Position numbers and translations under genes: made by a program
The notes under the pieces: model-generated
What the model was told of the DNA's origin: nothing
The model's database searches: none
What the model saw: only the letters and a program-made list of their open reading frames with translations
In this document: in pieces, positions 16,960 to 64,000 of the stretch
Layout of the letters: each line of letters begins with the position of its first letter
Position numbering within the stretch: position 1 is the stretch's first letter
NCBI RefSeq assembly: GCF_003990045.1
Contig: NZ_RZGZ01000001.1
Location: 434,001 to 498,000, forward strand
DNA: 64,000 nt
Source of the DNA: Labedella endophytica
GTDB taxonomy: Bacteria > Actinomycetota > Actinomycetes > Actinomycetales > Microbacteriaceae
Reading direction: 5' to 3'

Positions 16960-17066
16960 GAGGAGTAGGAGGCCCCGGCCCGCCGGGTCTCAGCGGACGC
17001 TGGACGGGCCGGACCGGGCCGGGCCTCGCTCGCTCGGGATCCGGCTGAGCGGGGAGAAGATCTCGG

Positions 17067-17190
17067 GTGGTCGCGAATCGTCGCGTCCTCACCCGCGACG
17101 CGACGTTCTGCGTCCACCCGGCGACGTGGAGGATCTCGGGTGGTCGCGAATCGTCGCCTCCGTACTCGCGGGGCGACGATTCGCAACCAC
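17067..17190. repeat. Tandem hairpin repeat, family 2 (two units)
   Basis: The phrase TCTCGGGTGGTCGCGAATCG followed by TCGC starts twice, 73 bp apart (near 17061 and 17134). Each forms the left arm of an inverted repeat. Unit 1 (17067-17125) is imperfect; unit 2 (17140-17158 with 17172-17190) has one mismatch in 19 bp. It lies between convergent genes, so it can end both transcripts. The core resembles family 1 (TCGCAATC versus TCGCGAATC). Confidence 0.85.
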
Positions 17191-49668: not shown

Positions 49669-50283
49669 TCAGGTCAGGATGGCGCGAGCCGCGGCGATGC
49701 GGCGCGCGATGATCTCGCCGATGGGGTCGGTGTTGTCGGGGCCGAGGAACTCCATCGCACTCGGTCGGGCGAATGCCCCCGCGAGGTGCACGACGGCCGC
49801 GGCGCGCAGGTCGCCGGCCGGCAGACCCTCCCGCTTCTCGACGAGGGCGATGTCCATGGCCTCGTCGCGCATCGCGAGCTCCATCATCCGGGCGAGCAGG
49901 CGAGGTTCCGCCTTGAGGGCGGTGGCGACACCCCGAAGGCCGGTGGTGTCGACGTCGGATCGGATCCAGCGATCCTCCATGAGTCGGAGGAAGTCCTCGA
50001 ACAGGGTGGGGGAGAGGGAGTCGGAGGAGGGGTCGCCGCCCGCGAGGAAGGCGTCGTCGAGTTCGTCGTCCGGTTCGCGGCTGGCGACCCCGACGACGGC
50101 GTCGTCCTTCGACGCGAAGTAGTTGAAGAACGTGCGTCGTGAGATGCCGACGGCGTCGCACAACTCCTCGACCGTGAAGCCGGAGAGGCCGCGCTCGGTG
50201 AAGAGGCGCCGCGCTTCCGCGACGAGCGCCCTCGTCGTCTTGGACTTGCGTCGCTCCCGCACGCCCATTGCACTATCTGCCAT
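49669..50283 (-). CDS. TetR-family repressor
   Basis: A 204-residue regulator. The N-terminal HTH is clear (TVEELCDAVGISRRTFFNYFASKDDAV). The C-terminal 130 residues form an effector-binding helical domain without strong family identity. It precedes the DHA2 efflux gene by 89 bp, so it probably represses itself and the pump until a drug binds. ATG 50283 lies directly downstream of a palindromic operator; ATG 50268 is a second option. Confidence 0.9.
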   Translation of the reverse strand: MADSAMGVRERRKSKTTRALVAEARRLFTERGLSGFTVEELCDAVGISRRTFFNYFASKDDAVVGVASREPDDELDDAFLAGGDPSSDSLSPTLFEDFLRLMEDRWIRSDVDTTGLRGVATALKAEPRLLARMMELAMRDEAMDIALVEKREGLPAGDLRAAAVVHLAGAFARPSAMEFLGPDNTDPIGEIIARRIAAARAILT

Positions 50284-50293
50284 ATGTGCATAT

Positions 50294-50318
50294 TTGCACT
50301 AAGTTGCATCGAGTGCAA
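50294..50318. promoter_or_regulatory. TetR operator/promoter of the efflux pair
   Basis: TTGCACT-N11-AGTGCAA is a perfect 7+7 inverted repeat centred on TGCA, 11 bp upstream of ATG 50283. On the minus strand the distal TTGCAC doubles as a -35, with AAATAT 17 bp later as the -10. Additional TGCA half-sites follow (TGCACATATGGCA). Typical of an autoregulated TetR site. Confidence 0.65.
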
Positions 50319-50360
50319 GTGGGTTGTGGAGGTGCGGAGCGGAACGGCCTCCGACGCAAC

Positions 50361-50394
50361 GAGCCCCCTCGCCGCCGGAGCGGAGAGAGGGCTC
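50361..50394 (-). terminator. Hairpin after the copper (YcnI) gene
   Basis: GAGCCC.CTC at 50361-50370 pairs with GAGAGGGCTC ending at 50394; 20 bp past the stop on the minus strand. Confidence 0.6.
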
Positions 50395-50415
50395 GAATCA
50401 TTGGAACGCGAGTCG

Positions 50416-51147
50416 TCAGGAGGAACGGCGACGCAGCGCCCACACGGCGAGGACCACACCCGCGAGACCGACGACGAGGCCGGCGACGCCGAGGCCGATC
50501 GCCGTGCCCACGGCGGGGTCGGCCGCGGCGTCCGTCGAGGCATCGGCGCTCGCCGCCTCGGTTCCGGAATCGTCGCTCGGCTCGGCGGCGCCGTGGCCGT
50601 GCGCGTCCTCCGATGCCGCGGTGAGGACGACGGCGGGGGCGGGGTGCTCCGGCTCGTCCTCGCCCGCGACGGTCTCCTCGTTCCACTCGGTGGATCCCAC
50701 CTCGCAGGTCTGGAGAACGGGGAACTCGACGACGTCCCCGGCCTCACCCGCCGGCAGCGGCACGGAGAGCGTGAACGTGTCGCGGAGGCCGTCGGCGAGC
50801 GGTGTCTTCGCGGTGTAGACGACCTCGGCGGTGTAGTCGGGGTCCGTCTCCGACGCGACCTTCGTGACGTCCCAGTTCGGGTTCACCGTGGGGGTCACGG
50901 TGATGACGGACTCCGGGATGGTGATGCGGATCTCGGTCGTCGGCGAGCCGTCGCAGCCGTGGGGAACCGCGAAGGTGAGGTTGGCGTACGACCCGGCGGC
51001 CGTCGTGTCGGGGGTGACGCCGACGTGCGCGCTCGCGGCGAGCGGGGCCGCGAACACGAGCGCGAGCCCGGCGACGCCGCCGAGGGCGAGCGTGCGGCGG
51101 CGCGGGGAGCGGGTGGAGGGCGCGGTCGAAGTGGTGCGTGAGGTCAT
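50416..51147 (-). CDS. YcnI-family copper-binding membrane protein (DUF1775)
   Basis: A 243-residue exported protein. After a Tat/Sec-like signal (RSPRRRTLALGGVAGLALVFAAPLAASA) the mature N-terminus begins AHVGV: this His is the copper ligand of the family. The DUF1775 core has NLTFAVPHGCDGSPTTEIRI with conserved Cys, and WDVTKV. A His/Asp-rich stretch (EDAHGHGAAE) precedes the C-terminal TM helix (ignoring the RRRSS tail). It likely binds Cu(II) outside the membrane for delivery to cuproproteins. The preceding gene encodes a His-rich membrane protein on the same strand. Confidence 0.9.
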   Translation of the reverse strand: MTSRTTSTAPSTRSPRRRTLALGGVAGLALVFAAPLAASAHVGVTPDTTAAGSYANLTFAVPHGCDGSPTTEIRITIPESVITVTPTVNPNWDVTKVASETDPDYTAEVVYTAKTPLADGLRDTFTLSVPLPAGEAGDVVEFPVLQTCEVGSTEWNEETVAGEDEPEHPAPAVVLTAASEDAHGHGAAEPSDDSGTEAASADASTDAAADPAVGTAIGLGVAGLVVGLAGVVLAVWALRRRSS

Positions 51148-51293
51148 TGCTGTCGTCCTTCGGGGGTGTGCCGCCCGTCGGCTGGGGACGGGGCGGCGGA
51201 TCGTCGATGTGACGCGGCGCGACGAGGGCGTCTGCGCCGCGGACACGCACACGGAGACCGGTGTCCGGCTCTCTCGAGCGGACGTCGGTCGAT

Positions 51294-51917
51294 CTACGCG
51301 GCGGTGACGAACGCGGGCGGGCCGCGGTGGCGGAGTCCGCCGAGGAGCAGGGGGAGTCGTGAGGGCCGGAGGCCGCTTCCCTCCGGGCGGATCCGCGCCG
51401 AGCCGCGGGTGACGAGCACCGGAACCGGAACGATCGCGCGGATGACCGAGGAGACCACGCGCGCGAGAGCGGCGATCCCGAGCGAGGAGCTGTCCACGAG
51501 ACGCAGCACCAGGATCGTGAGCGCGGCCGCACCGAGGTGCGCGAGGAGCATGGGTGCACCGTCGTGACCGTGACCAGCCGCATTCTGCACGAGAGTGAGC
51601 GTCGTCGACCCGGAGTGTGCCGCGTGTGCTCCGCCGGTTCCCGGCTGCGCCACGACGTGCGCTCCCGCGGGGCCGGCGAGTCCGAACGTGCAGTGGAACA
51701 GGGCCTGCGAAGCCACGACGGCGATCGAGACGCGGGGCCAGGAGAAGCGCCGACCGACGACGGCCGTACACCAGCCGACACTCACGATGAACGCGAGGAC
51801 GAGCAGAGCGGGGGAGGGGAACAGTCCGCCACCGATGGCATGCGAGAACGCCGCGACGAACGTCGCGATTCCGGCTGCGACGGTGCCGCGGGCCAGGCGA
51901 TCGGTGCGCGAGTGCAT
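51294..51917 (-). CDS. His-rich membrane protein, probable partner of the copper protein
   Basis: A 207-residue protein with four to five hydrophobic segments and a His-rich extracytoplasmic loop: GAHVVAQPGTGGAHAAHSGS, then AAGHGHDGAPMLLAHLG. The cluster of five to six histidines suggests metal binding. Its C-terminus is basic and lies in the cytoplasm. No named family is recognised, but such His-rich proteins are often found with YcnI/CopC in actinobacteria. GGAGG (minus strand of 51930-51934) is the ribosome site, 12 bases before ATG 51917. Confidence 0.72.
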   Translation of the reverse strand: MHSRTDRLARGTVAAGIATFVAAFSHAIGGGLFPSPALLVLAFIVSVGWCTAVVGRRFSWPRVSIAVVASQALFHCTFGLAGPAGAHVVAQPGTGGAHAAHSGSTTLTLVQNAAGHGHDGAPMLLAHLGAAALTILVLRLVDSSSLGIAALARVVSSVIRAIVPVPVLVTRGSARIRPEGSGLRPSRLPLLLGGLRHRGPPAFVTAA

Positions 51918-51941
51918 GGGTTCGGGGATCCTCCGGCGTCC

Positions 51942-51947
51942 ACGCTA
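51942..51947 (-). promoter_or_regulatory. -10 hexamer of the copper gene pair
   Basis: TAGCGT on the minus strand; gives a leader of about 20 bases with a GGAGG site. Confidence 0.5.
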
Positions 51948-52017
51948 CCTGTTTCGGGCCACCGTTCCGACGCGCCCCGGGGTGCTCGCCTTGCGTTCCG
52001 GGCGGGTGGCCCGCAGC

Positions 52018-52977
52018 ATGGGAACCATGAGTGGGGGCGGAACGGACGAGGTCGAGGGTGGGACGGCGGGCGACTCCGCTCGATCGCGCGCCCCGCGGCG
52101 TCGGATGCGGCTCCTCCTCATCGCGATGGTGGTCGTCGTGGTCCTCGTGGGTGTCGTGGTCGCGGTGCGGCTCGCCACGCCGGAACCGGTCCCCGTCGCG
52201 CAGACCGCCACTCCCACCCCGACGCCGACCACGACCCCCACCCCGTCGCCCACACCGACGGGGCATGCGCTCGACGCCCGCGGCTACGACCTCACGGGGC
52301 TGCCGACGGTCGACGTGTTCGCGGTGATCCCGGCCCTCCCGGTCGACGACGATCCCGACGGCGGCACGACGGGCGAGGTCGCGACGCCGCTCCCCGCCGG
52401 CGCCCCCGTCTTCGCCGAGCCCGGGCAGGAGCCGGTCGGGTCCCTCCCGCGGGAGCTGCCGTACGAGGGGAGCGTCGTCCCGATCATCGAGCGCGAGGAG
52501 CACTGGGTGCGCGTGCTGCTCGTCGGTCGCTCCGGCCTGCCGTCACAGGGCACGACCGGGCAGCTCACGGGCTGGCTCCGCACGGCGGACGTCGAGATCA
52601 CGCCGCTCGACTCCACCATCGAGGTGAGCATCTCCGCCGGCACGATCGACATCGTCACCCCCGAGGGACGGGAGCGGGTGCCCGGCGAGTTCGCGTGGGG
52701 CACGGAGGCGACCCCGACGCCGATCGGGCGCACGTTCGTCATGAGCGTGCGGACGGCGTCGTCGCTCGCGTACACCCGGGGCCACCCGATCGTGTACCTC
52801 GCCGTCCAGTCCCCGACCCTCGACGGCTTCGGCGGCATCGACGTCGCGATCACGGCGTTCCACTACCACGACACCCACGCCGGGGCGATCTCGAACGGCT
52901 GCCTGCGCGTCGGCACCGAGACGATCGATCGCCTCACCCAGCTGCCGGCCGGCACTTCCGTCCGCATCCTCCCCTGA
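52018..52977 (+). CDS. L,D-transpeptidase (YkuD domain), membrane-anchored
   Basis: A 319-residue protein: a cytoplasmic N-terminus, one TM helix (LLLIAMVVVVVLVGVVVAV, about residues 32-50), a Thr/Pro-rich spacer, an SH3-like region, and the C-terminal YkuD domain. The catalytic Cys295 is in ISNGCLRV, preceded by the histidines 282-287 (HYHDTH) of the family motif. It makes or trims 3-3 peptidoglycan cross-links in the wall, or attaches proteins. ATG 52018 is followed by ATG 52027; either could be the start. A strong hairpin at 52986-53027 ends the gene. Confidence 0.9.
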   Translation: MGTMSGGGTDEVEGGTAGDSARSRAPRRRMRLLLIAMVVVVVLVGVVVAVRLATPEPVPVAQTATPTPTPTTTPTPSPTPTGHALDARGYDLTGLPTVDVFAVIPALPVDDDPDGGTTGEVATPLPAGAPVFAEPGQEPVGSLPRELPYEGSVVPIIEREEHWVRVLLVGRSGLPSQGTTGQLTGWLRTADVEITPLDSTIEVSISAGTIDIVTPEGRERVPGEFAWGTEATPTPIGRTFVMSVRTASSLAYTRGHPIVYLAVQSPTLDGFGGIDVAITAFHYHDTHAGAISNGCLRVGTETIDRLTQLPAGTSVRILP

Positions 52978-52985
52978 CCCCCTAG

Positions 52986-53027
52986 AAATCCCCTCTGTGC
53001 TCGAATTTCCACGCACAGAGGGGATTT
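52986..53027 (+). terminator. Terminator after the L,D-transpeptidase gene
   Basis: AAATCCCCTCTGTGC (52986-53000) pairs perfectly with 53013-53027, ending in a TTTT; 12-base loop. The A/T-capped 15-bp stem is a good intrinsic terminator. Confidence 0.9.
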
Positions 53028-53056
53028 TCAGCGGGGGAGTGTCGGTGGGGGGTTCG

Positions 53057-53062
53057 TAGACT
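53057..53062 (+). promoter_or_regulatory. -10 hexamer of the 108-residue protein gene
   Basis: TAGACT gives a leader of roughly 40 bases with a CAGGAG ribosome site (53096-53101) before ATG 53108. Confidence 0.5.
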
Positions 53063-53107
53063 CGTGCTCGCGCAGGCCGGTGCGCTCCGACCCCCCAGGA
53101 GCCGCGC

Positions 53108-53434
53108 ATGTCCCCGCCGAAACCGATCCGCATCTCGCGGGTCGAATGGGTGTGCATGCGCAACGATCCCGTGCTCCCGAAGGCCGTCATCCGGCTCGTG
53201 ACGGTGCGCGAGCGGCGAAGCGGTCGGGACGGGGATGGATGCGGAGACGAGGACGGGCCCGCCGTCGAGCGCTATCGCGTCGTGACGTGGGCGCCGGACT
53301 CGGCTGATCGTCTCCTCGTCGGGTACTACGCCACGCTCGCCGAGGCGAACGCCGCCGTCCGGTACGACATCCCCGACCCGGCCTCCGTCGTCACGGGCCA
53401 CGCCGCCTTCGGCATGTACGGCCGCCAGCGCTGA
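53108..53434 (+). CDS. Small soluble protein, unknown
   Basis: A 108-residue protein with no signal or TM helix. It has an acidic/basic insert (RRSGRDGDGCGDEDG) and a C-terminal half that looks globular (RVVTWAPDSADRLLVGYYATLAEANAAVRYDIP). I recognise no family. Real-gene support: ribosome site, promoter hexamer and its place between two terminators. Confidence 0.55.
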   Translation: MSPPKPIRISRVEWVCMRNDPVLPKAVIRLVTVRERRSGRDGDGCGDEDGPAVERYRVVTWAPDSADRLLVGYYATLAEANAAVRYDIPDPASVVTGHAAFGMYGRQR

Positions 53435-53505
53435 CCGGGGCCCCGACCGGCTCCACCGCACCCACTCAGCCCGCTCGCGCCATCCGCGCTGCCCCGTCCG
53501 GATCA

Positions 53506-53610
53506 CCGAGCGCTACAGGAACAGCCGAGCGCCACACGAAAACGTGTGACGGTCGGCTGACGGTGGCGCGCTCGGCGCAGGGGAGGTCCAGCGCGCTCGT
53601 CGCGCTGGAC
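53506..53610 (-). terminator. Two stacked hairpins downstream of galE
   Basis: A long imperfect hairpin (53506-53575; AAAA loop between CACACG and CGTGTG) is followed by a perfect one, GTCCAGCGCG-CTCGT-CGCGCTGGAC (53586-53610). They lie 60-160 bp after the galE stop. Apart from these the 236-bp gap 53435-53670 has no gene. Confidence 0.65.
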
Positions 53611-53670
53611 AAGCGACCGCGTTCGGCGCGCGGGCCGGAGCGCCGTGTGACGAGCGCGGAGCGGCCGGTG

Positions 53671-54633
53671 TCAAGCGCCGGAGCGCGAGGCCTCCCAGGC
53701 GCTCCCGATCATCTCGTCGAGGGAGTGCCGCATGCGCCAGTCGAGGTCGCGCGCGGCGAGTTCCCCGCTCGCGACGATCCGCGCCGGGTCGCCGGGGCGA
53801 CGGGGGCTGATCTCCGGATCGAATGGCGTGCCCGTCACCCGGGCGACGCCGTCCATGATCTGGCGGACGGAGACGCCGTCGCCGCTGCCGAGGTTGTAGA
53901 CCGGCTCGATGTCCTCGTCGCCGGTCAGCCGCTCGGCCGCGCGCACGTGCGCCTCGGCGATGTCCGCCACGTGCACGTAGTCACGCACGCACGTGCCGTC
54001 GGGGGTCGGATAGTCGGTGCCGTTGATGCGCGGCACCCGGCCCTCCGCGAGCGCGGCAAAGACCAGTGGGAACAGGTTGTGCGGACTCGTGTCGCGGAGA
54101 TCGGGCGAAGCCGACCCCACGACGTTGAAGTACCGCAGGCTCGTGTGGCGGAGTCCCGTCGCGCGGCCTTGATCGCGGAGCAGCCATTCCCCGATGAGCT
54201 TGGTCTCGCCGTACGGCGACTCGGGCCGCGTGGCCGTGGCCTCCGTCACGAGGTCGGTGTCGGGTGTGCCGTACACCGCGGCACTCGACGAGAACACGAT
54301 GCGGGCCACACCGGCGCGCTCGGCCGCGGCGAGCAGGTTCGTCGTGGCCGTCACGTTCTGCTCGTAGGTGTGGATGGGCTTCTTCACCGATTCGCCGGCG
54401 TACTTGTATCCCGCGATGTGCACGACTCCCGCGAATCGGTACTCCGAGAACACGCGGTCGAGCAGCGGCACGTCGAGGAGAGTGCCCTCGACGAAGTCCT
54501 GGTCGTCGGAGATGAAGGAGCGGTGTCCGCTCGAGAGGTCGTCGAGCACGACGGTGGCGATGCCCGCCGCCGCGAACGCGCGGACGACGTGCGCCCCGAT
54601 GTACCCGGCCCCGCCGGTGATCAACCACGTCAT
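53671..54633 (-). CDS. galE: UDP-glucose 4-epimerase
   Basis: A 320-residue short-chain dehydrogenase-fold enzyme interconverting UDP-galactose and UDP-glucose with tightly bound NAD+. TGGAGYIGAHVVRAF is the nucleotide-binding loop; catalytic Ser is in FSSSAAVYG and the Tyr/Lys pair in SPYGETK. The RYFNVVG strand is present. It closes the Leloir pathway as the last gene of galT-galK-galE on the minus strand, 54 bp after galK. Confidence 0.94.
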   Translation of the reverse strand: MTWLITGGAGYIGAHVVRAFAAAGIATVVLDDLSSGHRSFISDDQDFVEGTLLDVPLLDRVFSEYRFAGVVHIAGYKYAGESVKKPIHTYEQNVTATTNLLAAAERAGVARIVFSSSAAVYGTPDTDLVTEATATRPESPYGETKLIGEWLLRDQGRATGLRHTSLRYFNVVGSASPDLRDTSPHNLFPLVFAALAEGRVPRINGTDYPTPDGTCVRDYVHVADIAEAHVRAAERLTGDEDIEPVYNLGSGDGVSVRQIMDGVARVTGTPFDPEISPRRPGDPARIVASGELAARDLDWRMRHSLDEMIGSAWEASRSGA

Positions 54634-54687
54634 GATGTTCCCGTTCGTCTCGTCGTCTTCTGATCGTGCGGTCGTCCGTCGCCCACG

Positions 54688-55850
<1,163 letters not shown>

Positions 55851-55854
<4 letters not shown>

Positions 55855-56963
55855 CGGACGGCCTCCTTCCAGGCGGCTGCCTGCGTCTCGGGGAGCACAT
55901 CGCCGATGAAGGCGCCCATGGCGCTCTCCGAGCCGGCGAGGTACTTGAGTCGTTCCGGCGCCCGGCGGGGGGACGTGATCTGGAGCGTCAGCCGGATGTC
56001 GCGGTGGTGGTTCACGGGGGCCTGGTGCCAGGCTGCGATGTACGGGGTGGGGTCACCGTAGATCGCATCGATCCCCTGCAGGACGCGGGGGAGGAGCTCG
56101 GCGAGTTCCGCGCGTTCGGCCGAATCGGTCTCCGCGAGGTCCGCGACATGACGGTGCGGCATGACGTGCAGTTCGAGGGGCCAGCGCGCGGCGAAGGGCA
56201 CGTAGGCGCTCCAGTGCTCACCGCGGACGATGACCCTCTCGGAAGCGAGCTCGAACGCGAGGATGTCCTCGAAGAGGCCCGGTCCGTGCTTCTCGACGGA
56301 CGCGACGAGGCGCTGCGTGCGCGGCGTCACGTACGGGTAGGCGTAGATCTGACCGTGCGGGTGGCGCAGGGTGACCCCGATCGCCTCCCCGCGGTTCTCG
56401 AACGCGAAGACCTGCTCGACACCGGGCACCTCGGAGAGCGCCGCCGTGCGATCGGCCCAGGCCTCGACGACCGTGCGGAGGCGCTCAGGGGCCTGGCTCC
56501 CGAGCGATCCCTCGTGCTCGGGGCTGAAGCACACGACCTCGCAGCGGCCGACCGACGGCCGGCTGCTCCCGATGCCGGGTTCGGCGTCTCCGTGTGTGTC
56601 CACGTCGGTCACGGTTGCGGGTCCGAAGGAGGGGGATCGGTTCTCGAAGACGGCGACGTCGTACCGGTCGGGCACCTCGGACGGATTCGTGGCACTCGCC
56701 GGGGCGAGCGGGTCGAGGTCGGCCGGTGGGAGGAAGACGCGGTTCTGGCGGGCGGACGCGATCGAGATCCACTCCCCGGTGAGGGGGTCGTGGCGCATCG
56801 AGGCCGTGGCGGGGCGCGGATCCAGTGTTCGGGCGTCGCTCGCCCGCTCGGCAGTGAGGCTCGATCCGTGGTCGTCGTAGTAGAACAGGTCGCGGCCGTC
56901 GGCGAGAGTGTCGTCGTGGCGCACGACACCGTCCTGGAGGGCGACGGAGGGAAGCAGGGGCAT
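55851..56963 (-). CDS. galT: Galactose-1-phosphate uridylyltransferase
   Basis: A 370-residue HIT-superfamily transferase exchanging UMP between UDP-glucose and galactose-1-phosphate. The active-site LRHPHGQIYAY (HPH-Q) is intact, and ELHVMPHRHVADL supplies the second metal/histidine region. The N-terminal DPLTGEWISIASARQNRVFLP is typical. It leads the gal operon and starts from ATG 56963 with CAATAT six bases upstream. The divergent DeoR gene is 44 bp away. Confidence 0.93.
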
Positions 56964-56969
56964 GGTTTC

Positions 56970-56998
56970 ATATTGACAAGCAAACGCAAGCAAAGCAA
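56970..56998 (-). promoter_or_regulatory. gal operon promoter with DeoR-type direct repeats
   Basis: Minus-strand -35 TTGCTT (56998-56993) and -10 CAATAT (56975-56970), 17-bp spacer, with the start codon six bases after the -10. On the plus strand CAAGCAAA is repeated at 56977-56984 and 56987-56994, exactly one helical turn apart and inside the spacer: a likely operator for the divergent DeoR protein. Confidence 0.65.
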
Positions 56999-57007
56999 GG
57001 TTGGCCT

Positions 57008-57805
57008 ATGTCGGATCCCGTCGAAACGCCCCTCCCTGCCGACATGCGTCGCGCCCGCATCCTCGAGATCGTGCGGGATCGCGGCTTCGTGCGGGTCTCC
57101 GACCTCGGCGGATCGTTCGGCGTCTCCGATGTGACGGTGCGCGGTGATCTCGACGCCCTCGCGGCGACGGGCTCCGTGCGCCGCGTGCACGGCGGTGCGG
57201 TCGCGGCCCTCGGACCGGTCGCGGAACCGTCGTTCGAGCAGGCCTCCGACGCCTTCGCTGGGGAGAAACGCGCGATCGGCCGAGCGGCTGCCGCCCTCGT
57301 CTCCTCCGGCCAGAGCATCTTCCTCGATGTCGGCACCACAGCGAACGCGGTCGCCGTGGCTCTGGCGGAACGCGACGACCTCACCGACGTCGTCGTCATG
57401 ACGAACGGGCTCAACATCGCCCTCGCCCTCGAGGCGACGATCCCCCGCTTCACCGTGCTCGTGACGGGGGGAGCGCTCCGGCCCCTCCAGCACTCCCTCG
57501 TGAACCCCATGGCGCTCCGGCTGCTCGACGGCCTGCACGCCGACCTCGCGATCATCGGCTGCAACGGGGTCCACCCCGAGGCGGGCGTGACCAACGTCAA
57601 CCTCCCGGAGGCCGAGGTGAAGCGGGCGATGGTGGAACGCGCGGGCCGCACCGTCGTGGTCGCGGACGGATCGAAGCTCGGCAACGTGCATCTCGGCCGG
57701 ATCGCGCGGCTCGCGGAGGTGGACGTGCTCATCACGAGCGCGTCTGCACCGGCCGGAGCCCTCGACGAGTTCGCCGCCCTCGACCTGTCGGTCACGCAGG
57801 TCTGA
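57008..57805 (+). CDS. DeoR/GlpR-family sugar-phosphate-responsive repressor
   Basis: A 265-residue regulator with the classic DeoR HTH (RRARILEIVRDRGFVRVSDL ... SDVTVRGDLDAL, residues about 12-60) and a C-terminal sensor domain (AIGRAAAALVSSGQSIFLDVGTT, GGALRPLQHSLV). The DeoR sensor normally binds a phosphorylated sugar, here most likely galactose-1-phosphate or a related ester. It diverges from galT over a 44-bp gap and probably represses both. A start at ATG 57008 follows CCTATG with no obvious ribosome site. Confidence 0.9.
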   Translation: MSDPVETPLPADMRRARILEIVRDRGFVRVSDLGGSFGVSDVTVRGDLDALAATGSVRRVHGGAVAALGPVAEPSFEQASDAFAGEKRAIGRAAAALVSSGQSIFLDVGTTANAVAVALAERDDLTDVVVMTNGLNIALALEATIPRFTVLVTGGALRPLQHSLVNPMALRLLDGLHADLAIIGCNGVHPEAGVTNVNLPEAEVKRAMVERAGRTVVVADGSKLGNVHLGRIARLAEVDVLITSASAPAGALDEFAALDLSVTQV

Positions 57806-57837
57806 GAGCGGCCCTGGCCGGGGAACCCCGGGGGTTG

Positions 57838-57843
57838 TAGCCT
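57838..57843 (+). promoter_or_regulatory. -10 hexamer of the VOC-protein gene
   Basis: TAGCCT gives a leader of about 45 bases with GGAGG (57886-57890) six bases before ATG 57897. Confidence 0.45.
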
Positions 57844-57896
57844 CCTTCCTGACGGCGCCGTCGACTCCGCCGCCGCCCGACGATCGGAGGACCACC

Positions 57897-58280
57897 ATGT
57901 TCGCGACGACCCCGGCCTTCAGCGGTTTCTCGGTGGACGACATCCCCGCGGCAAGGGCCTTCTACGCCGATGTCCTCGGGCTCGACGTGCGCGAGGAGAA
58001 CGGCATGCTCCTCCTCGGGATCCACGAGAGCCAGCCGATCCTCGTCTACCCGAAGGGCGAGGCGCACACTCCCGCATCGTTCACGATCCTGAACTTCCCC
58101 GTCGACAACGTCGAGGCGACCGTTCGGGAGCTCGCCGACCGCGGCGTGGAGTTCGAACGGTACGACGGCGTCGACGAGCTCGGCATCATGCGGGCGGACG
58201 GGCCCCTCATCGCGTGGTTCACCGATCCGGCCGGGAACATCCTGTCCGTGATCGAGAGCGGCGACGACGCCGGCCACTAG
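57897..58280 (+). CDS. VOC-superfamily protein (glyoxalase/dioxygenase fold)
   Basis: A 127-residue single VOC domain of two beta-alpha-beta-beta-beta units: FSVDDIPAARAFYADVLGLDVREENG, then FTILNFPVDNVEATVRELADRG and WFTDPAGNILSVIE. The usual metal ligands of glyoxalase I are largely missing, so it may be a binding protein or a divergent lyase/dioxygenase. A ribosome site GGAGG decides the start. Confidence 0.82.
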   Translation: MFATTPAFSGFSVDDIPAARAFYADVLGLDVREENGMLLLGIHESQPILVYPKGEAHTPASFTILNFPVDNVEATVRELADRGVEFERYDGVDELGIMRADGPLIAWFTDPAGNILSVIESGDDAGH

Positions 58281-58304
58281 AGCGACCGGACGTTTCCGAC
58301 GCGC

Positions 58305-59039
58305 TCAGCTGGCGTAGCGCTCGGCGAACGCCCGCAACACGCGGTGCGATGCGTCGACGTCGGCCCGAGCCACACGCTCGGCGACGGCCGCGGTCTCCGT
58401 CGGATCGAAGTACCCGTGGGTCGAATACGTCAGCACGCGCGCGACCATCGCCTCGACGGTGAGTTCCGGGTGGAACTGGGTCGCGTACCGGTTCCGACCG
58501 ATGCGGAAGGCCTGCACCGGGCAGGCGTCGCCCGTCGCGAGCAGCACCGCGTCGGCGGGGAGGACGGCGACGGCCTCCTTGTGGCCGACGAAGGCGTCGA
58601 ACACACGGGGGAGGGCGCCGAACACCGGGTCGTCCGCTCCCTCGTCCGTGAGCCTCACGGCGACCGCCCCCGAGCGTTCGCCGTATGTCCGATCGATCAC
58701 GGCGCCCGCGTGCCGGCCGAGCGTGCCGATTCCGTAGCACGCGCCGAAGAAGGGAACGTCGTCGCGGGCGACGAGGTCGAGAAGGTCGTGGAGCTCGCGC
58801 TCCACCCGCACCTGCACGGCCGACTTCGTCGCCGGCGGGTCCGTGGAGGTGAAGGGGCTCCCGGCGAGGAACACGCCGGAGTAGTCGCCGAGGTCGAACC
58901 CGGCAGGCAGCGGCGCGACGTCGAGGCGGTGGTGGGCGAGGCCCGTGCGCGGCAGGCCCGTGAGCTCGACGAAGAGCTCGTACTCGTTCGCTGCGGTCGC
59001 GTCCTCGACTCGGGTCGTGAGGAGGAGGAACGGTCGCAT
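58305..59039 (-). CDS. Class-I glutamine amidotransferase-like protein
   Basis: A 244-residue stand-alone GATase-1 domain of the GuaA/YfeJ type. The nucleophile is in FFGACYGIG and the His-Glu pair in TQFHPELTVE; LAGSPFTST forms the oxyanion loop. A HKEAV segment follows the usual GuaA-like order. It probably hydrolyses gamma-glutamyl bonds or glutamine; no acceptor domain is attached. ATG 59039 is six bases after TAATCT. Confidence 0.87.
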   Translation of the reverse strand: MRPFLLLTTRVEDATAANEYELFVELTGLPRTGLAHHRLDVAPLPAGFDLGDYSGVFLAGSPFTSTDPPATKSAVQVRVERELHDLLDLVARDDVPFFGACYGIGTLGRHAGAVIDRTYGERSGAVAVRLTDEGADDPVFGALPRVFDAFVGHKEAVAVLPADAVLLATGDACPVQAFRIGRNRYATQFHPELTVEAMVARVLTYSTHGYFDPTETAAVAERVARADVDASHRVLRAFAERYAS

Positions 59040-59045
59040 CCGCCC

Positions 59046-59051
59046 AGATTA
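59046..59051 (-). promoter_or_regulatory. -10 hexamer of leaderless promoter (GATase gene)
   Basis: TAATCT on the minus strand, six bases before ATG 59039. Confidence 0.6.
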
Positions 59052-59301
59052 GTGCCGGAGCGGGGGCAGTGCCGGCGCGGTGCCCCCCGAACGCGCCGGC
59101 CGTCGTCGGTATCGCGTACGCCCCCGCGTTCTGGGTCGCGACACGGTGACCGCGCACCGCCACAATCGGACACAGGACGCACCACGCGCACGTCGAGCCG
59201 TTCCGGTCGACCTGCGCCGACCGAGGCCGGGGGGCCGCGGTCCGTGTGCGCGGACCACGCAGGACACCTCGTGGTCGTTCGACCGATCGGGGGAGAGTTC
59301 G

Positions 59302-60363
59302 ATGGATGCAACGGGAGATCGGGTCGTGGGCGCGAACGCCGCACGACCGAGCCGCGGACGTGGCCGCGGGCTCGTAGCGGCTCTGGCCGTCGGGATCGGC
59401 GCGCTCGCGCTGCTCGTCATGCCGGCCGGCGGCGCCGCGGCGGCGTCACCGGACGAGTCCGGGGTCGAGGTGTCGGTGCGCATGACCGCCTCGTCGGACC
59501 AGCCGACGGCCGGCGACACGGTGGTCGTCGACCTGACGCTCACGAACACGGGGCCGTCCTCCGAACGTGTCCTCGTCGACGAGGTGGTCACCGGCGTCCT
59601 CGACGATGCCCGCATGGAGGTCGCGGCCGAGGCGTCGTCCTCGTCCGTCACCGTCATCCGACTCGGTCACGATCGACTGGCCCTGTCCGGGTATCTCGAC
59701 CCCGGCCAGGTCGTCACGGTCGGCTACACCGTCGTGATCCGCCCCGACGCGGAACGGGGCGACGGAGTCCTGTCGCGCGTCGCGCTCGCGGCGGACGTGG
59801 CCCGCTCCTGCGCGGACGATGAGGCGACGGACACGGGCTCCGGGCTCGGCGACTGCACGGCGATCGTGCTCGCCGGAGCGCCCGTCGAATCCGCGGGGTC
59901 GACGTCCGCCGAGGACCGCGCCGCCGTATCAGCCGAGGAGTCGCTCGCCGCCTCTGCGCGATCGTCGTCCTCGTCGGATGCGAGCGGGGTCTCGGCTGCG
60001 GGGGATGACGGAGCCTCGGTCGATGCCGCCGTCGGACCGATCCCAACCGCCCTCGTGGTTCCTCTCTCCGTGGTGCTCGCCGCGCTGCTCGCCATCTCCG
60101 CACTCCTGGTGGTCGTGCACCGCGCTCGACGCCGGCGCTCGCGGCGGGTCCTCTCCGAACCGGTGGTCCTCCCGACGCGTCCTGTCTCCGACCGGTCGCG
60201 CCCGGTGGTTCCCGTTCAACCGGCGCGCGCCACCTCGGACCACGCTCTTCCGGTACGCGTGATCCGGCCGCTCCCGCCCGCGGTGCATTTCGACTCCCGA
60301 CGCGAGCGCCGCCTGGCCGAGCGGCGCCTCGCAGAGCGGGGGCTCGCGCTCCCCGTTGCGTAA
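59302..60363 (+). CDS. Cell-surface protein with DUF11-like domain and C-terminal anchor
   Basis: A 353-residue exported protein. A signal segment (VAALAVGIGALALLVMPAGG) ends near residue 48. The next 110 residues resemble a DUF11/conserved repeat beta-sandwich (DTVVVDLTLTNTGPSSERV). A Ser/Ala-rich spacer, a TM helix (ALVVPLSVVLAALLAISALLVVV) and a long basic cytoplasmic tail follow, ending RRERRLAERRLAERGLALPVA. That tail is duplicated downstream at 62260-62329. ATG 59302 has GGGGGAGAG upstream. Role unknown; the stop codon TAA lies in the -10 of the next frame. Confidence 0.75.
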   Translation: MDATGDRVVGANAARPSRGRGRGLVAALAVGIGALALLVMPAGGAAAASPDESGVEVSVRMTASSDQPTAGDTVVVDLTLTNTGPSSERVLVDEVVTGVLDDARMEVAAEASSSSVTVIRLGHDRLALSGYLDPGQVVTVGYTVVIRPDAERGDGVLSRVALAADVARSCADDEATDTGSGLGDCTAIVLAGAPVESAGSTSAEDRAAVSAEESLAASARSSSSSDASGVSAAGDDGASVDAAVGPIPTALVVPLSVVLAALLAISALLVVVHRARRRRSRRVLSEPVVLPTRPVSDRSRPVVPVQPARATSDHALPVRVIRPLPPAVHFDSRRERRLAERRLAERGLALPVA

Positions 60364-60407
60364 GCTTCCAGCATGCCGATCGCCCTCATCCGCCGCGCGC
60401 AGACCAC
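60294..60407 (+). repeat. Direct repeat flanking the GH10 gene, copy 1
   Basis: About 114 bp aligning without gaps to 62260-62373 (offset 1966). By my count roughly four bases in five match over the first 79 positions, and 22 consecutive bases match from the ATG on. It spans the end of the surface-protein gene, its stop, the leaderless promoter and the start of a phosphatase-like frame. Confidence 0.85.
60361..60366 (+). promoter_or_regulatory. -10 hexamer overlapping the surface-protein stop codon
   Basis: TAAGCT includes the TAA stop (60361-60363) and ends six bases before ATG 60373; the same arrangement recurs at 62327-62332. Confidence 0.55.
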
Positions 60408-60549
60408 TCTGCCGTGGGTGGGGTTCTCCGTCGCCACCACTTCCTCGCCCTGTTCCACTCCCGTCGCGGCAGCCACCCCGCAACTGGACGTCACCGGCGG
60501 CTGCGAGCGGCCGGCCCCCGCGGATGACGTTCACCGATGGCAGCCCTGA
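60373..60549 (+). pseudogene. Truncated N-terminus of a histidine phosphatase fused to unrelated sequence
   Basis: A 58-codon frame starting MPIALIRRAQT, identical in its first seven residues to the intact phosphatase at 62339, but the RHG catalytic motif is changed to RRA and homology stops after about 12 residues. The rest (TTSSPCSTPVAATPQ...) is novel. It overlaps the GH10 start by 13 bases. It is best read as a relic of the event that placed the GH10 gene here, although its promoter is intact and it may be translated. Confidence 0.7.
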
Positions 60550-62240
60550 CCGCCCGGCGACGGCGCGTCGTGAGCGTGGCGACCGCCGGCCTCCTCCTCG
60601 CCCTGCTGGGCTGCAGCTCGACGGACTCGCCCTCCGAGCGGGGTACCGTCATCGACCTCCTGCAGCAGGATTGGCGGCACGTGCCGGGAATCGTTGCGGA
60701 CGGCGATCGTGTGCGGGTGACGGCGACGGCGCTGCGCATCGTCGAGCAGGACGGCGGGGGAGGCCAGCCGAACCCGCCGGTCAACCTGGCGGGAACGCAT
60801 CTGGTGGCCGCGGGGGACTTCTCGCTCAGTGCGTCATTCACCGACGTGACGGCCGATGCGACCCTGGCCGTCTACGAGAGCCCGCCGGTGATCGCCGACG
60901 AGTTCCGGATCGAGCCGGCGGGTGTCCAGCTCACGCTCCGCGGCGACGACCTCCGGATCGCCGTCTTCGACGGCTCTCTCCAGCAGGACGTGACCGACCC
61001 GCAGCCGGCGCAGGACGAGCACGTCACGGTCCTCGACCCCGAGGCGGAGCTCTCCGTGCACCGTTCCGGCGACCGGCTCGAGATCTCGAGCGGTGGCGGG
61101 ATGGTGTCCTCCCTGCCCCTCGGCGACGTCTTCGGTTCTGGCGAACTCTGGTTGGGGTTGTCGAGCGACGAGGGGTCCTTCACCGTCGGTTCGCTCACGG
61201 CCGCTGCGCCGGGTGGCTCGTCCCTCGCCACCGCCGGTCCCGCCGCGGCCGACGCGGAGCGATCCGCGGACGGTCTGCAGGCTCGTGCAGCCCGCTCTCG
61301 CCCGGACTTCCTGATCGGCGCGGCAGTGGCACTCGGTCCGCTCGCCTCGGACGCGGACTACGCGAACAACGTCGTGGGCGACTTCGGTGCTCTCACACCG
61401 GAGAACGCGATGAAGCCGCAGGCGCTCTCTCCTCGGCAGGGTGAATACACCTTCGAGGAGGCCGACGCCCTCCTCGATGTCGCGGAGAGCAAGGGAATGG
61501 CCGTGCACGGCCACACCATCGCGTTCACCGAGGCGATGCCCCGCTGGATGAGGGAACTCCCGACCGGCTCCGAGCAGGAGCGCCAGGCCAGCGCCGAGGT
61601 TCTGCTCGACTACGTGAGCACCGTCGTCACGCACTTCAGGGGTCGGCTCGATTCGCTCGACGTCGTGAACGAACCGTTCGACGTCGACCAGGGGACCCAT
61701 CTGCAGGAGAACATCTGGCACCGGGTCTTCGGGCCGACGTACCCGGTGATCGTCTCGCAAGCGGTTCACGACGCGGACCCGGACGTCAGGCAGTTCATCA
61801 ACGAGAACGGCGCCGACGTGCCGGGTCCCCGCCAGGACGCCCTGGTCCAGCTCGCTCTCGACACGAACGAGCAGGGTGGGCACATCGACGGCGTGGGCCT
61901 TCAGTCTCATGTCTACGACCTCGACACCGATGCCCTCTCCGCCGATGATCTCGCGACCACGTTCGACAACGTCGAGGATGCCGGGCTGATCGTTCGGATC
62001 TCCGAGAACGACGTCACGGACAGCGAGGGTCAGGACGCCCAGGCGCAGCAGTACGCCACGGTCCTCGCGGCCTGCCTCCGCTCGGAAACCTGTGTCTCGT
62101 ACACGACGTGGGGAGTGGACGATCGGTTCGACTGGTGGATCGACGACGACGGCGGCCTGCAGCAGGGCCACGACTTCCTGTTCGACGACGGAGAGCCGAC
62201 GCCAGCATACGACGCGGTGAGGAAGGTGCTCGCGGACTGA
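60537..62240 (+). CDS. GH10 endo-beta-1,4-xylanase-like lipoprotein
   Basis: A 567-residue exported enzyme: lipobox LALLGC (Cys near 26), an N-terminal beta-sandwich of about 200 residues (carbohydrate-binding or LamG-like), an Ala-rich linker, then a GH10 barrel from about 258. Acid/base Glu379 is in DVVNEPF and the nucleophile Glu490 in RISENDV. GDFGALTPENAMKPQ and HGHTIAFTE are GH10 landmarks, but the usual HTLVWH tryptophan/His pair and ITELD are altered, so substrate preference may differ. It is anchored to the membrane, cutting polymeric xylan or related glucan outside. It lies inside a duplicated context. Confidence 0.87.
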   Translation: MAALTARRRRVVSVATAGLLLALLGCSSTDSPSERGTVIDLLQQDWRHVPGIVADGDRVRVTATALRIVEQDGGGGQPNPPVNLAGTHLVAAGDFSLSASFTDVTADATLAVYESPPVIADEFRIEPAGVQLTLRGDDLRIAVFDGSLQQDVTDPQPAQDEHVTVLDPEAELSVHRSGDRLEISSGGGMVSSLPLGDVFGSGELWLGLSSDEGSFTVGSLTAAAPGGSSLATAGPAAADAERSADGLQARAARSRPDFLIGAAVALGPLASDADYANNVVGDFGALTPENAMKPQALSPRQGEYTFEEADALLDVAESKGMAVHGHTIAFTEAMPRWMRELPTGSEQERQASAEVLLDYVSTVVTHFRGRLDSLDVVNEPFDVDQGTHLQENIWHRVFGPTYPVIVSQAVHDADPDVRQFINENGADVPGPRQDALVQLALDTNEQGGHIDGVGLQSHVYDLDTDALSADDLATTFDNVEDAGLIVRISENDVTDSEGQDAQAQQYATVLAACLRSETCVSYTTWGVDDRFDWWIDDDGGLQQGHDFLFDDGEPTPAYDAVRKVLAD

Positions 62241-62249
62241 TCGTCGAGT

Positions 62250-62329
62250 ATCTGTGGAGCTCCCAGCGCGAGCGTCGGGTCGCCGAGCGGCGGCTGGCCG
62301 AGCGAGGGCTCGCACTCCCCGTCGCGTAG
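62250..62329 (+). pseudogene. Orphan C-terminal tail of the surface-protein gene
   Basis: The frame reads ...SSQRERRVAERRLAERGLALPVA-stop, matching the last 20-odd residues of the 59302-60363 product. No start codon or upstream domain accompanies it. It directly follows the GH10 stop and precedes the histidine phosphatase, occupying the position the full gene would have had. Confidence 0.8.
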
Positions 62330-62373
62330 GCTCGGAGCATGCCGATCGCCCTCATCCGCCATGGTCAGACCGA
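62260..62373 (+). repeat. Direct repeat flanking the GH10 gene, copy 2
   Basis: Gap-free counterpart of 60294-60407. In this copy the downstream phosphatase gene is intact and the upstream surface gene is reduced to its tail, the mirror of copy 1. Confidence 0.85.
62327..62332 (+). promoter_or_regulatory. -10 hexamer of leaderless promoter (histidine phosphatase)
   Basis: TAGGCT ends six bases before ATG 62339 and includes the TAG stop of the orphan tail. Confidence 0.65.
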
Positions 62374-62938
62374 CTGGAACGCCGCTCTCCGCATTCAGGG
62401 ATCGACGGACATTCCGCTCAACGACATCGGACGGGAGCAGGCCGGGGGCATCGTCCACCGACTCGACGCCTCGCGCTGGGACATCGTGGTCAGTTCTCCG
62501 CTCTCGCGGGCTCGCGAGACCGCCGAGATCCTCGCCGCGGGCCTCGGGCTCGAGCTCGGACCGGCGATCCCCGAGCTCGTCGAACGCGGGTACGGCGAGG
62601 CCGAGGGGGCGACGGCCGAGGTCATCCGAGAGAACTGGCCGGATCGTCAGTACCCCGGGATGGAGAGCGAGGCCGACGTCCAGGCCCGCGGTGCCGCGGC
62701 GATCGCGGCGATCGAGGAGCGCTTCCCCGGACGGAATGTGCTGGCCGTCAGCCACGGGACCCTCATCCGCCTCGCGGTGGGGTTCGTCACCGGGACGGTC
62801 GTCGCGTCATTGCCCAACACCGCGATCGTCGAGATCGACCGCGAGGGCGAGCGCTGGGTCCTCGTGGACGCCGAAGTCACGGTCGACGGCGTCGAGGCCG
62901 CCGTCCGGATCGGGCATCCCGCTCCCAGCGCTCGCTGA
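62339..62938 (+). CDS. Histidine phosphatase (phosphoglycerate mutase-like)
   Basis: A 199-residue cytoplasmic phosphatase. The RHG motif IRHGQTDWN (phospho-His near residue 8) is at the N-terminus, followed by SSPLSRARETAEIL with the second Arg, and the distal catalytic His in VSHGTLIRLAVG. It is shorter than glycolytic phosphoglycerate mutases and fits the broad-specificity GpmB/CobC group. Its 5' end exists as a second, truncated copy at 60373. Confidence 0.9.
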   Translation: MPIALIRHGQTDWNAALRIQGSTDIPLNDIGREQAGGIVHRLDASRWDIVVSSPLSRARETAEILAAGLGLELGPAIPELVERGYGEAEGATAEVIRENWPDRQYPGMESEADVQARGAAAIAAIEERFPGRNVLAVSHGTLIRLAVGFVTGTVVASLPNTAIVEIDREGERWVLVDAEVTVDGVEAAVRIGHPAPSAR

Positions 62939-62995
62939 CGGCGGGCCGACGTCGCGTGGGCGACGCCGTGCGCGCGTGGCGAGGGCGGCCCGCGC

Positions 62996-63820
62996 ATGGA
63001 GGACAATAGGCCGGTGCCGACTCGTCATTCCCCCCGCACCATCACGTTCCTGATCCTCATCGGGCTCGTCGCCGGTTTCATGTCGGGCCTCTTCGGTGTG
63101 GGCGGCGGAATCATCATCGTGCCCGCGCTCGTGATCCTCGCCGGTTTCGAGCAGCGATTGGCGGCCGGAACCTCTCTCGCCGCGATCCTCCCCACCGCCA
63201 TCGTCGGCGTCGTGACCTATGCGATCCAGGGCCACGTCGACGTCGTCGTGGCGCTCATCCTGGCCGCGGGTGCCGTCGTCGGGGCACAGATCGGCTCGTT
63301 CCTCCTGAGCAGGCTCCCGAAGGCCGTGCTCCAGTGGGGCTTCATCGCGTTCCTACTCGTCGTCGTGGTCCAGCTCTTCCTCGTCGTGCCCTCGCGCGAC
63401 GAGGGTGTCGAGCTCTCGGTCGGCGTCGTCGTCGGCCTCGTAGCCCTCGGCCTCGTGACGGGTGTGCTCTCGGGGCTGCTCGGCATCGGCGGGGGCGTCG
63501 TGGTCGTCCCCATGCTCATCCTGCTGTTCGGCTCGAGCGACCTCGTCGCGAAGGGCTCGTCGCTGCTCATGATGATCCCGACGGCGCTCTCCGGCACCAT
63601 CGCCAACACGCGCCGGAGGAACGTCGACCTGATGGCGGCGGCGATCGTGGGTGTCGCCGCCTGCACGACGACGACGGTCGGAGCCCTCGTGGCCGCCGCC
63701 CTCGCGCCCGACGTGGCGAACGTGCTGTTCGCCGTCTTCCTCGTGCTCATCGCCGCTCGGATGATCTCCGACATGATCCGCGCGCGACGGGCTCGCGGCC
63801 GGGAAGGGCTCGAGGGCTGA
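62996..63820 (+). CDS. TSUP-family permease (TauE/SafE, sulfite exporter-like)
   Basis: A 274-residue membrane protein with eight to nine helices and the internal duplication of the family: GFMSGLFGVGGGIIIVPALV in the first half and GVLSGLLGIGGGVVVVPMLI in the second. Members move organosulfonates or sulfite; the substrate here is undetermined. The start is uncertain: ATG 62996, or GTG 63014, which follows AATAGGCC closely. It stands alone between the phosphatase and the MaoC-type gene. Confidence 0.85.
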   Translation: MEDNRPVPTRHSPRTITFLILIGLVAGFMSGLFGVGGGIIIVPALVILAGFEQRLAAGTSLAAILPTAIVGVVTYAIQGHVDVVVALILAAGAVVGAQIGSFLLSRLPKAVLQWGFIAFLLVVVVQLFLVVPSRDEGVELSVGVVVGLVALGLVTGVLSGLLGIGGGVVVVPMLILLFGSSDLVAKGSSLLMMIPTALSGTIANTRRRNVDLMAAAIVGVAACTTTTVGALVAAALAPDVANVLFAVFLVLIAARMISDMIRARRARGREGLEG

Positions 63821-63859
63821 GGGGAGCGGCACGGCCTCTGGCCGTGGCGGGGGTGGCTG

Positions 63860-63865
63860 TAGTCT
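63860..63865 (+). promoter_or_regulatory. -10 hexamer of leaderless promoter (MaoC-type gene)
   Basis: TAGTCT ends six bases before GTG 63872, selecting it over GTG 63878. Confidence 0.6.
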
Positions 63866-63871
63866 GAGGGT

Positions 63872-64000
63872 GTGTCTGTGAACCCCGCGATCCAGGGCAG
63901 GGAGTTCCCGCCCGTCGCCCCTTACCTCGTCGGTCGTGAGAAGGTGCGCGAGTTCGCTCGCGCCGTCCTCGCGACCTCGCCCCTCCACTCGGACCCGGAG
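63872..64000 (+). CDS. MaoC-type (HadA-like) dehydratase, N-terminal fragment cut by window end
   Basis: 43 codons are visible: VSVNPAIQGREFPPVAPYLV, then GREKVREFARAVLATS. This is the start of an actinobacterial hotdog dehydratase with an FAS1-like N-terminal domain, as in HadA/HadC, which removes water from 3-hydroxyacyl thioesters. The frame is open to the window edge. The product should be about 150 residues. GTG 63872 has the six-base leaderless spacing. Confidence 0.75.
   Translation, partial: MSVNPAIQGREFPPVAPYLVGREKVREFARAVLATSPLHSDPE

Follow-up and report, generated by a model that had tools for sequence, protein, structure and literature searches.

A predicted GH10 xylanase gene between two diverged copies of one gene junction in Labedella endophytica

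How does an enzyme gene come to stand between two other genes with the junction of those two genes present on either side of it? The question is raised by a locus in a 64,000-nt stretch of the Labedella endophytica genome (assembly GCF_003990045.1, contig NZ_RZGZ01000001.1, positions 434,001 to 498,000 of the forward strand), hereafter the window, whose first nucleotide is position 1 of all unprefixed coordinates. Here a GH10 gene, a predicted xylanase gene, separates a putative surface-protein gene from a histidine-phosphatase gene, and a direct repeat flanks it. The insertion is a known kind of event, that of a single gene, in an unusually legible example; the explanation that we favour, to which we give about an even chance, is that the locus is a recombination mosaic, with GH10 coming from a related lineage of Labedella level and joined by homology at one end and illegitimately at the other. 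The parts of the locus are as follows.

59302..60363, plus strand: predicted surface-protein gene, 353 aa, intact, with a DUF7927/DUF11-type domain and an Arg/Glu-rich C-terminal tail.
60294..60405, plus strand: junction copy 1, made up of the surface-gene tail with stop TAA, a 9-nt spacer and the first phosphatase codons.
60373..60549, plus strand: 58-aa reading frame from the orphan phosphatase ATG of copy 1, overlapping the GH10 start by 13 nt.
60408..60536, plus strand: 129-nt stretch between copy 1 and the GH10 start, for which only short matches were found.
60537..62240, plus strand: GH10 gene, 567 aa, with a lipobox-like Cys26, an N-terminal region at about 30-245, the GH10 domain at 257-563, and Glu 379 and 490.
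62260..62371, plus strand: junction copy 2, made up of an orphan surface-gene tail with stop TAG, the spacer and the phosphatase start.
62339..62938, plus strand: intact gene of 199 aa, histidine phosphatase superfamily branch 1.
58305..59039, minus strand: class I glutamine amidotransferase-like gene, which borders the locus on its left side in each of the four Labedella genomes.

The initial annotation of this DNA described a gap-free direct repeat of about 114 bp around the xylanase gene, and alignment bears this out: 60294-60407 and 62260-62373 are identical at 92 of 114 positions with no gap, at an offset of 1966, the repeat as detected being 60294-60405 and 62260-62371 (112 nt, 82%, ungapped). 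Beyond this span the similarity falls, by eye, to background. Searched against the own genome, 60280-60420 matches only itself and copy 2 (5e-26) at E 0.001. Each copy covers the surface-gene tail, its stop and the start of the phosphatase gene, and the reading frames confirm the proposed asymmetry between them. Copy 1 joins the end of the intact 353-aa surface gene to the first 7 phosphatase codons, after which the broken phosphatase frame enters unrelated sequence and ends at 58 aa, inside the GH10 start; copy 2 starts 19 nt past the GH10 stop with an orphan surface tail of 22 codons, followed by the intact 199-aa phosphatase gene. An assembly error was dismissed, the copies differing at 22 of 114 positions inside a 759-kb contig. 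The alignment that the initial annotation had called for also disposed of a mere low-complexity match: the similarity is not confined to an RRER motif, and the repeat continues through the stop codon and spacer into the start of the next gene. At the settings used, the window has just one other direct repeat of at least 60 nt within 8 kb, a 62-nt tandem pair at 17056; this pair (17056-17190) is 81% alike at a spacing of 73, with GATCTCGGGTGGTCGCGAATCGTCGC in common.

The left end of the insert is where homology stops. The phosphatase similarity of copy 1 is secure only as far as a 25-nt exact run that ends at 60394; the 13 nt past that point match weakly (CAGACC). The similarity breaks within the phosphatase start at about 60394-60405 and is followed by 129 nt with only short matches, that is, a non-homologous join, as homology-facilitated illegitimate recombination (HFIR) requires. 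Across the four Labedella genomes that form our genus sample (the window's own, G000, and the congeners G001, G002 and G003), the best match of 60408-60536 besides itself has E 0.005 over 32 nt. Among 398 genomes of the family, with two candidates per genome scored, 35 including the own one match at E 0.001, many of them in the same GC-rich part; all matches outside the own genome are short (21-69 nt), the best having E 4.9e-6. At the right end, copy 2 runs into the phosphatase gene in continuous homology, in which a donor tract could not be separated from resident DNA.

The congeners supply the empty site. The junction is single and GH10 is absent from this site in all three, in agreement with the empty-site prediction made for this locus. 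In G001 and G002 the surface-gene tail lies directly before the phosphatase with one junction, and GH10 is absent from the 15 kb examined; the ancestral order suggested at the outset, surface gene directly before phosphatase, is thus seen in both, the surface gene of G001 being shortened. In G003 the surface gene is deleted except for a short remnant, stop included, ahead of the phosphatase; by eye, some 20 nt around the old stop are left directly before the phosphatase start (L034:7749-7875). What is left of the surface gene in G001 is a frame of 131 aa with the start region and the conserved Arg-rich tail (L033:7312-7707, minus strand). The window's surface protein found no match in G001, whether the locus or the genome was searched, and the gene there apparently underwent a large internal deletion. 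To judge by these sequences, the interval between the amidotransferase and phosphatase genes seems especially prone to insertion and deletion.

GH10 itself is present at E 0.001 in two of the four genus genomes, the own one and G001, with no match in G002 or G003. The G001 protein is 82% identical to the window's and its gene is located far from this junction, between a gene tentatively read as DnaJ-type from a Pfam match below the cut-off and a 279-aa gene without a Pfam match, tentatively read by eye as a secreted lytic transglycosylase. In the window's genome the homologues of these two neighbours adjoin, with 220 nt between them. Each genome's GH10 site is empty in the other, and therefore the two serve as reciprocal empty sites. 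No flanking repeat stands out at the G001 site, and its flank alignments show no clear duplication, although the right-hand one has many gaps up to about its last 50 nt. A hairpin-like pair, GTGCGGACATCGG / GATGTCCGCAC, terminator-like by eye, lies past the 279-aa gene in both genomes (L174:4994-5213, L041:6843-6960), and the G001 GH10 gene sits just beyond it.

When the two junction copies diverged can be asked separately from when they came together. The surface tail has 66 coding nucleotides; the two copies differ from each other at 12 of them, and each copy differs from the G001 tail at 14, so the three junction tails are about equally distant. The differences between copies fall at codon positions 1, 2 and 3 in the numbers 1, 1 and 10. 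Ten tail codons differ, 8 of them synonymously; 12 random changes gave a mean of 7.2 non-synonymous codons, and two or fewer in 0.07% of trials. Had the orphan tail drifted freely during half of the divergence, a count of two differences at the 44 first and second sites would have P 9e-5; when slower rates are assumed (0.36 and 0.30 third-position differences for the half of one lineage), P is 0.003 or 0.014. Furthermore, the orphan phosphatase start in copy 1 is unchanged at all 21 nt (P 0.001 to 0.009). If the orphan copy is charged with both the first-site and the second-site difference, the insertion falls, at the 95% limit, in the final 44% of the depth of one lineage. The third-position identity of the copies is 12/22; between G000 and G001 it is 57-77% in 14 of the 18 compared frames, those with at least 77% amino-acid identity, and 49 to 86% in the other four, which are partial matches with 55-70% amino-acid identity. 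As far as such comparisons go, the divergence of the copies would be about species-level, and most of it probably arose while both junctions were whole: the third-position bias, together with the preserved phosphatase start, fits junctions that diverged while functional and were joined later.

Two proposals of the initial annotation need to be divided in this light. For the divergence of about 20% between copies it offered an old event or recombination between related strains; the latter fits better, and against the former the orphan parts are too well preserved for an old event in place. Its statement that GH10 arrived with, or by, a duplication of the junction holds for the two-junction geometry, but probably not for the word duplication. 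If recombination of lineages is accepted, "duplicated" may therefore misname what are two orthologous junctions brought together.

The recombination mosaic would have formed as follows. DNA from a lineage of Labedella level, in which GH10 was immediately followed by the native surface-gene tail and phosphatase, would have entered and paired homologously with the resident surface-phosphatase pair on the phosphatase side, and its other end would have been joined illegitimately at, or just after, the 25-nt identical block of the resident phosphatase start. The route could be HFIR, or a single crossover with a circle. Such an event would leave the surface gene whole at the left edge and the phosphatase whole at the right edge, with a dead remnant of both genes in the stretch between them. 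What was observed, and what this scheme accommodates, is the repeat, the break of similarity, the third-position bias, the empty sites and the sites of GH10 elsewhere; from these we infer the donor lineage, which of the copies is the resident, and the joining route, with a linear or a circular donor. As to means, Ku (PF02735) is present in 4/4 Labedella genomes and in 1/14 control genomes, and a ComEC-type gene (PF03772) in 4/4; end joining and perhaps DNA uptake are therefore possible in the genus, neither being proven.

Several results weigh against the recombination mosaic. PF03772 also matches 10/14 controls, Escherichia coli included, and is weak evidence for natural transformation. In the 398 family genomes searched with GH10, no donor carrying it beside the surface tail and phosphatase was found. 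The identity of flanking genes to G001 is similar on both sides, with no tract of foreign ancestry, and third-position identity along the locus marks neither side as foreign. Copy 2 is nearer to G001 overall (98/114 positions) than copy 1 is (89), mostly through the spacer and phosphatase start, a closeness that decay of copy 1 after the insertion could explain too. The substitution tests draw on only 66 + 21 informative sites and assume a simple model, and the codon-count test with 6 changes (half) given to the orphan branch is not significant (P 0.11). Finally, one-ended homologous insertion is described in PMC5361080 as rare, orders of magnitude below normal recombination.

The reach of the GH10 gene in the family bears on how it might move. 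Full-length relatives were found in 16/398 Microbacteriaceae genomes, own included, and any GH10 match at E 0.001 in 72/398; both counts are lower bounds, with three candidates per genome scored. Beyond the 16, the matches either do not exceed 37% identity and lie almost all in the GH10 domain, or are short fragments; G075 (35 aa at 71%) and G158 (about 95 aa at 34%) were left out of the flank, tree and residue counts. Comparing 3 kb per side at the 16 loci (1.76 kb downstream for the window), we found the flanks mostly unrelated. Related flanks of at least 100 nt link G246 with G355 on both sides and G134 with G240 downstream with an offset; the downstream flanks of G073 and G246 share 475 nt at 71%, at different distances, and a few further between-genome matches measure 57-84 nt. 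Among the 16 genes, only the window's adjoins this junction. Flanking direct repeats at the 15 other loci, sought in 400 nt on each side without gaps against five shuffles per locus, score at about shuffle level, and four loci (G134, G073, G130 and G419) slightly above their five shuffles were taken as chance; the window is the only one of the 16 loci with a flanking repeat clearly above chance. In a midpoint-rooted tree, three rows of genus g12 are grouped and G371, also of g12, is split off by a 100/99 branch, its GH10 being 82% identical to the window's, as is that of G001; 7/13 inner branches are unresolved and the two Labedella rows stand together in 1% of bootstrap trees. Movement of GH10 between genera is supported by the tree, at least for G371, without direction.

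What else could have produced the two junctions? The GH10 DNA may have been captured at a break, or by a template switch, with some 112 nt of junction being copied twice and diverging afterwards in this lineage. An insert bounded by a target duplication is a geometry that such repair can yield, Ku is at hand in all four genomes, the spacer GGAG and the phosphatase His-Gly codons found in copy 2 and G001 are missing from copy 1, as after decay, and the codon-count test with half of the changes on the orphan tail (P 0.11) brings no rejection. Yet 18% divergence with 10/12 tail differences at third positions and 25 nt of phosphatase start unchanged is improbable in dead sequence, and the divergence is about that between species while G001 has a single junction, which makes this duplication in place unlikely in our view. 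A tandem duplication of the whole surface-phosphatase pair, with both units long kept and the middle (the body of the first phosphatase and that of the second surface gene) later replaced by GH10, would explain the third-position bias without a donor; it requires two events and the retention of two units, however, and the three congeners have one unit each, so that we hold it to be quite improbable.

A dedicated mobile element, be it a transposon, an integron-like cassette or the target of an integrase, might be suspected from 16 full-length relatives in 398 genomes with mostly unrelated flanks. However, these loci do not share ends, the repeats flanking the 15 others are at about shuffle level, no repeat or clear duplication is seen at the G001 site with its gappy right-hand alignment, and no tRNA lies within 50-64 kb of the window. 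The tRNA and tmRNA search of 50000-64000 returned 0 genes, and a tRNA-targeted island was dismissed. No transposase is among the seven proteins scanned, three of them from the locus itself, and none of the 13 inverted pairs in 60100-62600 brackets the GH10 ends; the one that comes nearest, 14 nt at 86%, lies within the gene. With no bracketing inverted repeats, shared ends or transposase in that set, a transposon or cassette was dismissed as well; the initial remark that neither a transposase nor a tRNA is involved agrees with this, and we regard a dedicated element as extremely improbable. A very unlikely further extension would give the scars a use: the captured phosphatase start of copy 1 would open a 58-aa leader for expressing the xylanase, copy 2 would restore the phosphatase start, and the GH10 lineage would spread through Microbacteriaceae as a bare gene joining at gene junctions. 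The 58-aa frame is itself a possible leader ORF.

The inserted gene product belongs to the GH10 xylanases by its domain and both Glu, and is a predicted xylanase. Pfam PF00331 matches at 257-563 (E 2.8e-61, 207.9 bits against a curated cut-off of 22.1), and the protein aligns with solved xylanases, best with 3wuf (E 1.4e-40). Glu 379 and Glu 490, placed by alignment to 3wuf, we take to be the catalytic residues, and the Cys26 motif is presumably a lipobox; both Glu positions and the lipobox-like cysteine are kept in 16/16 full-length genes, own included. The N-terminal region (about aa 30-245; 60624-61271) has no Pfam match at E 0.01 and is 64-80% identical to its counterpart in 15 relatives; it is possibly an undescribed accessory domain. 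Compositional foreignness was dismissed: the gene has GC 0.690, similar to its neighbours, and the proposed comparison of composition, run as GC at third codon positions, proved uninformative (0.877 against 0.85-0.92 in five neighbours). The phosphatase matches no NCBIfam model above its cut-off. The surface protein matches Pfam DUF7927 (E 1.1e-15), with a DUF11 match below its cut-off, and its surface location is a prediction. Some 12-19 kb past the window end lies a frame of about 3129 aa (G000:C1:510427-516831) that resembles the DUF7927 part of the surface protein in many places, and similar frames of 3038 aa (G002) and 3156 aa (G003) occur in congeners.

Returning to the favoured mosaic, the locus is a clean natural record of an enzyme gene entering a gene pair, with no mobile element in view. 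The two original genes are still intact, the scars on both sides can be read, and empty sites are at hand for this site and, reciprocally, for the congener's. The age of an insertion need not follow from the divergence of the repeat that flanks it, since the copies may have diverged before meeting, and their divergence does not mean that the insertion is old.

Among known systems, HFIR joins foreign DNA to a chromosome with homology at one end only, and PMC3240628 names it in Streptococcus pneumoniae, Acinetobacter baylyi and Pseudomonas stutzeri, and in E. coli conjugation at low efficiency. Homology at one end would be the shared trait; in Labedella, by contrast, the process is a reading drawn from one product. 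In Vibrio cholerae, displacement of type VI secretion system (T6SS) effectors leaves orphan immunity genes, for which an HFIR-like route is proposed with a "perhaps" in PMC5361080. Both there and here a module insertion leaves an orphan homologous remnant downstream; here, by contrast, one enzyme gene stands between two others with remnants of both neighbours, from a single event and without selection through a toxin and its immunity gene. According to PMC2884548, the small variable segments found in bacterial genomes are flanked by direct repeats in about 10% of cases and are attributed largely to illegitimate recombination; our locus resembles them as a short variable insert between conserved stretches, but most repeats reported there are below 30 bp, and here the repeat is 112 nt and 18% diverged. 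The enzyme itself is like the GH10 endo-xylanases in its PF00331 domain and its match to 3wuf, and unlike them in carrying some 215 aa more towards the N-terminus, for which Pfam gives no match at E 0.01.

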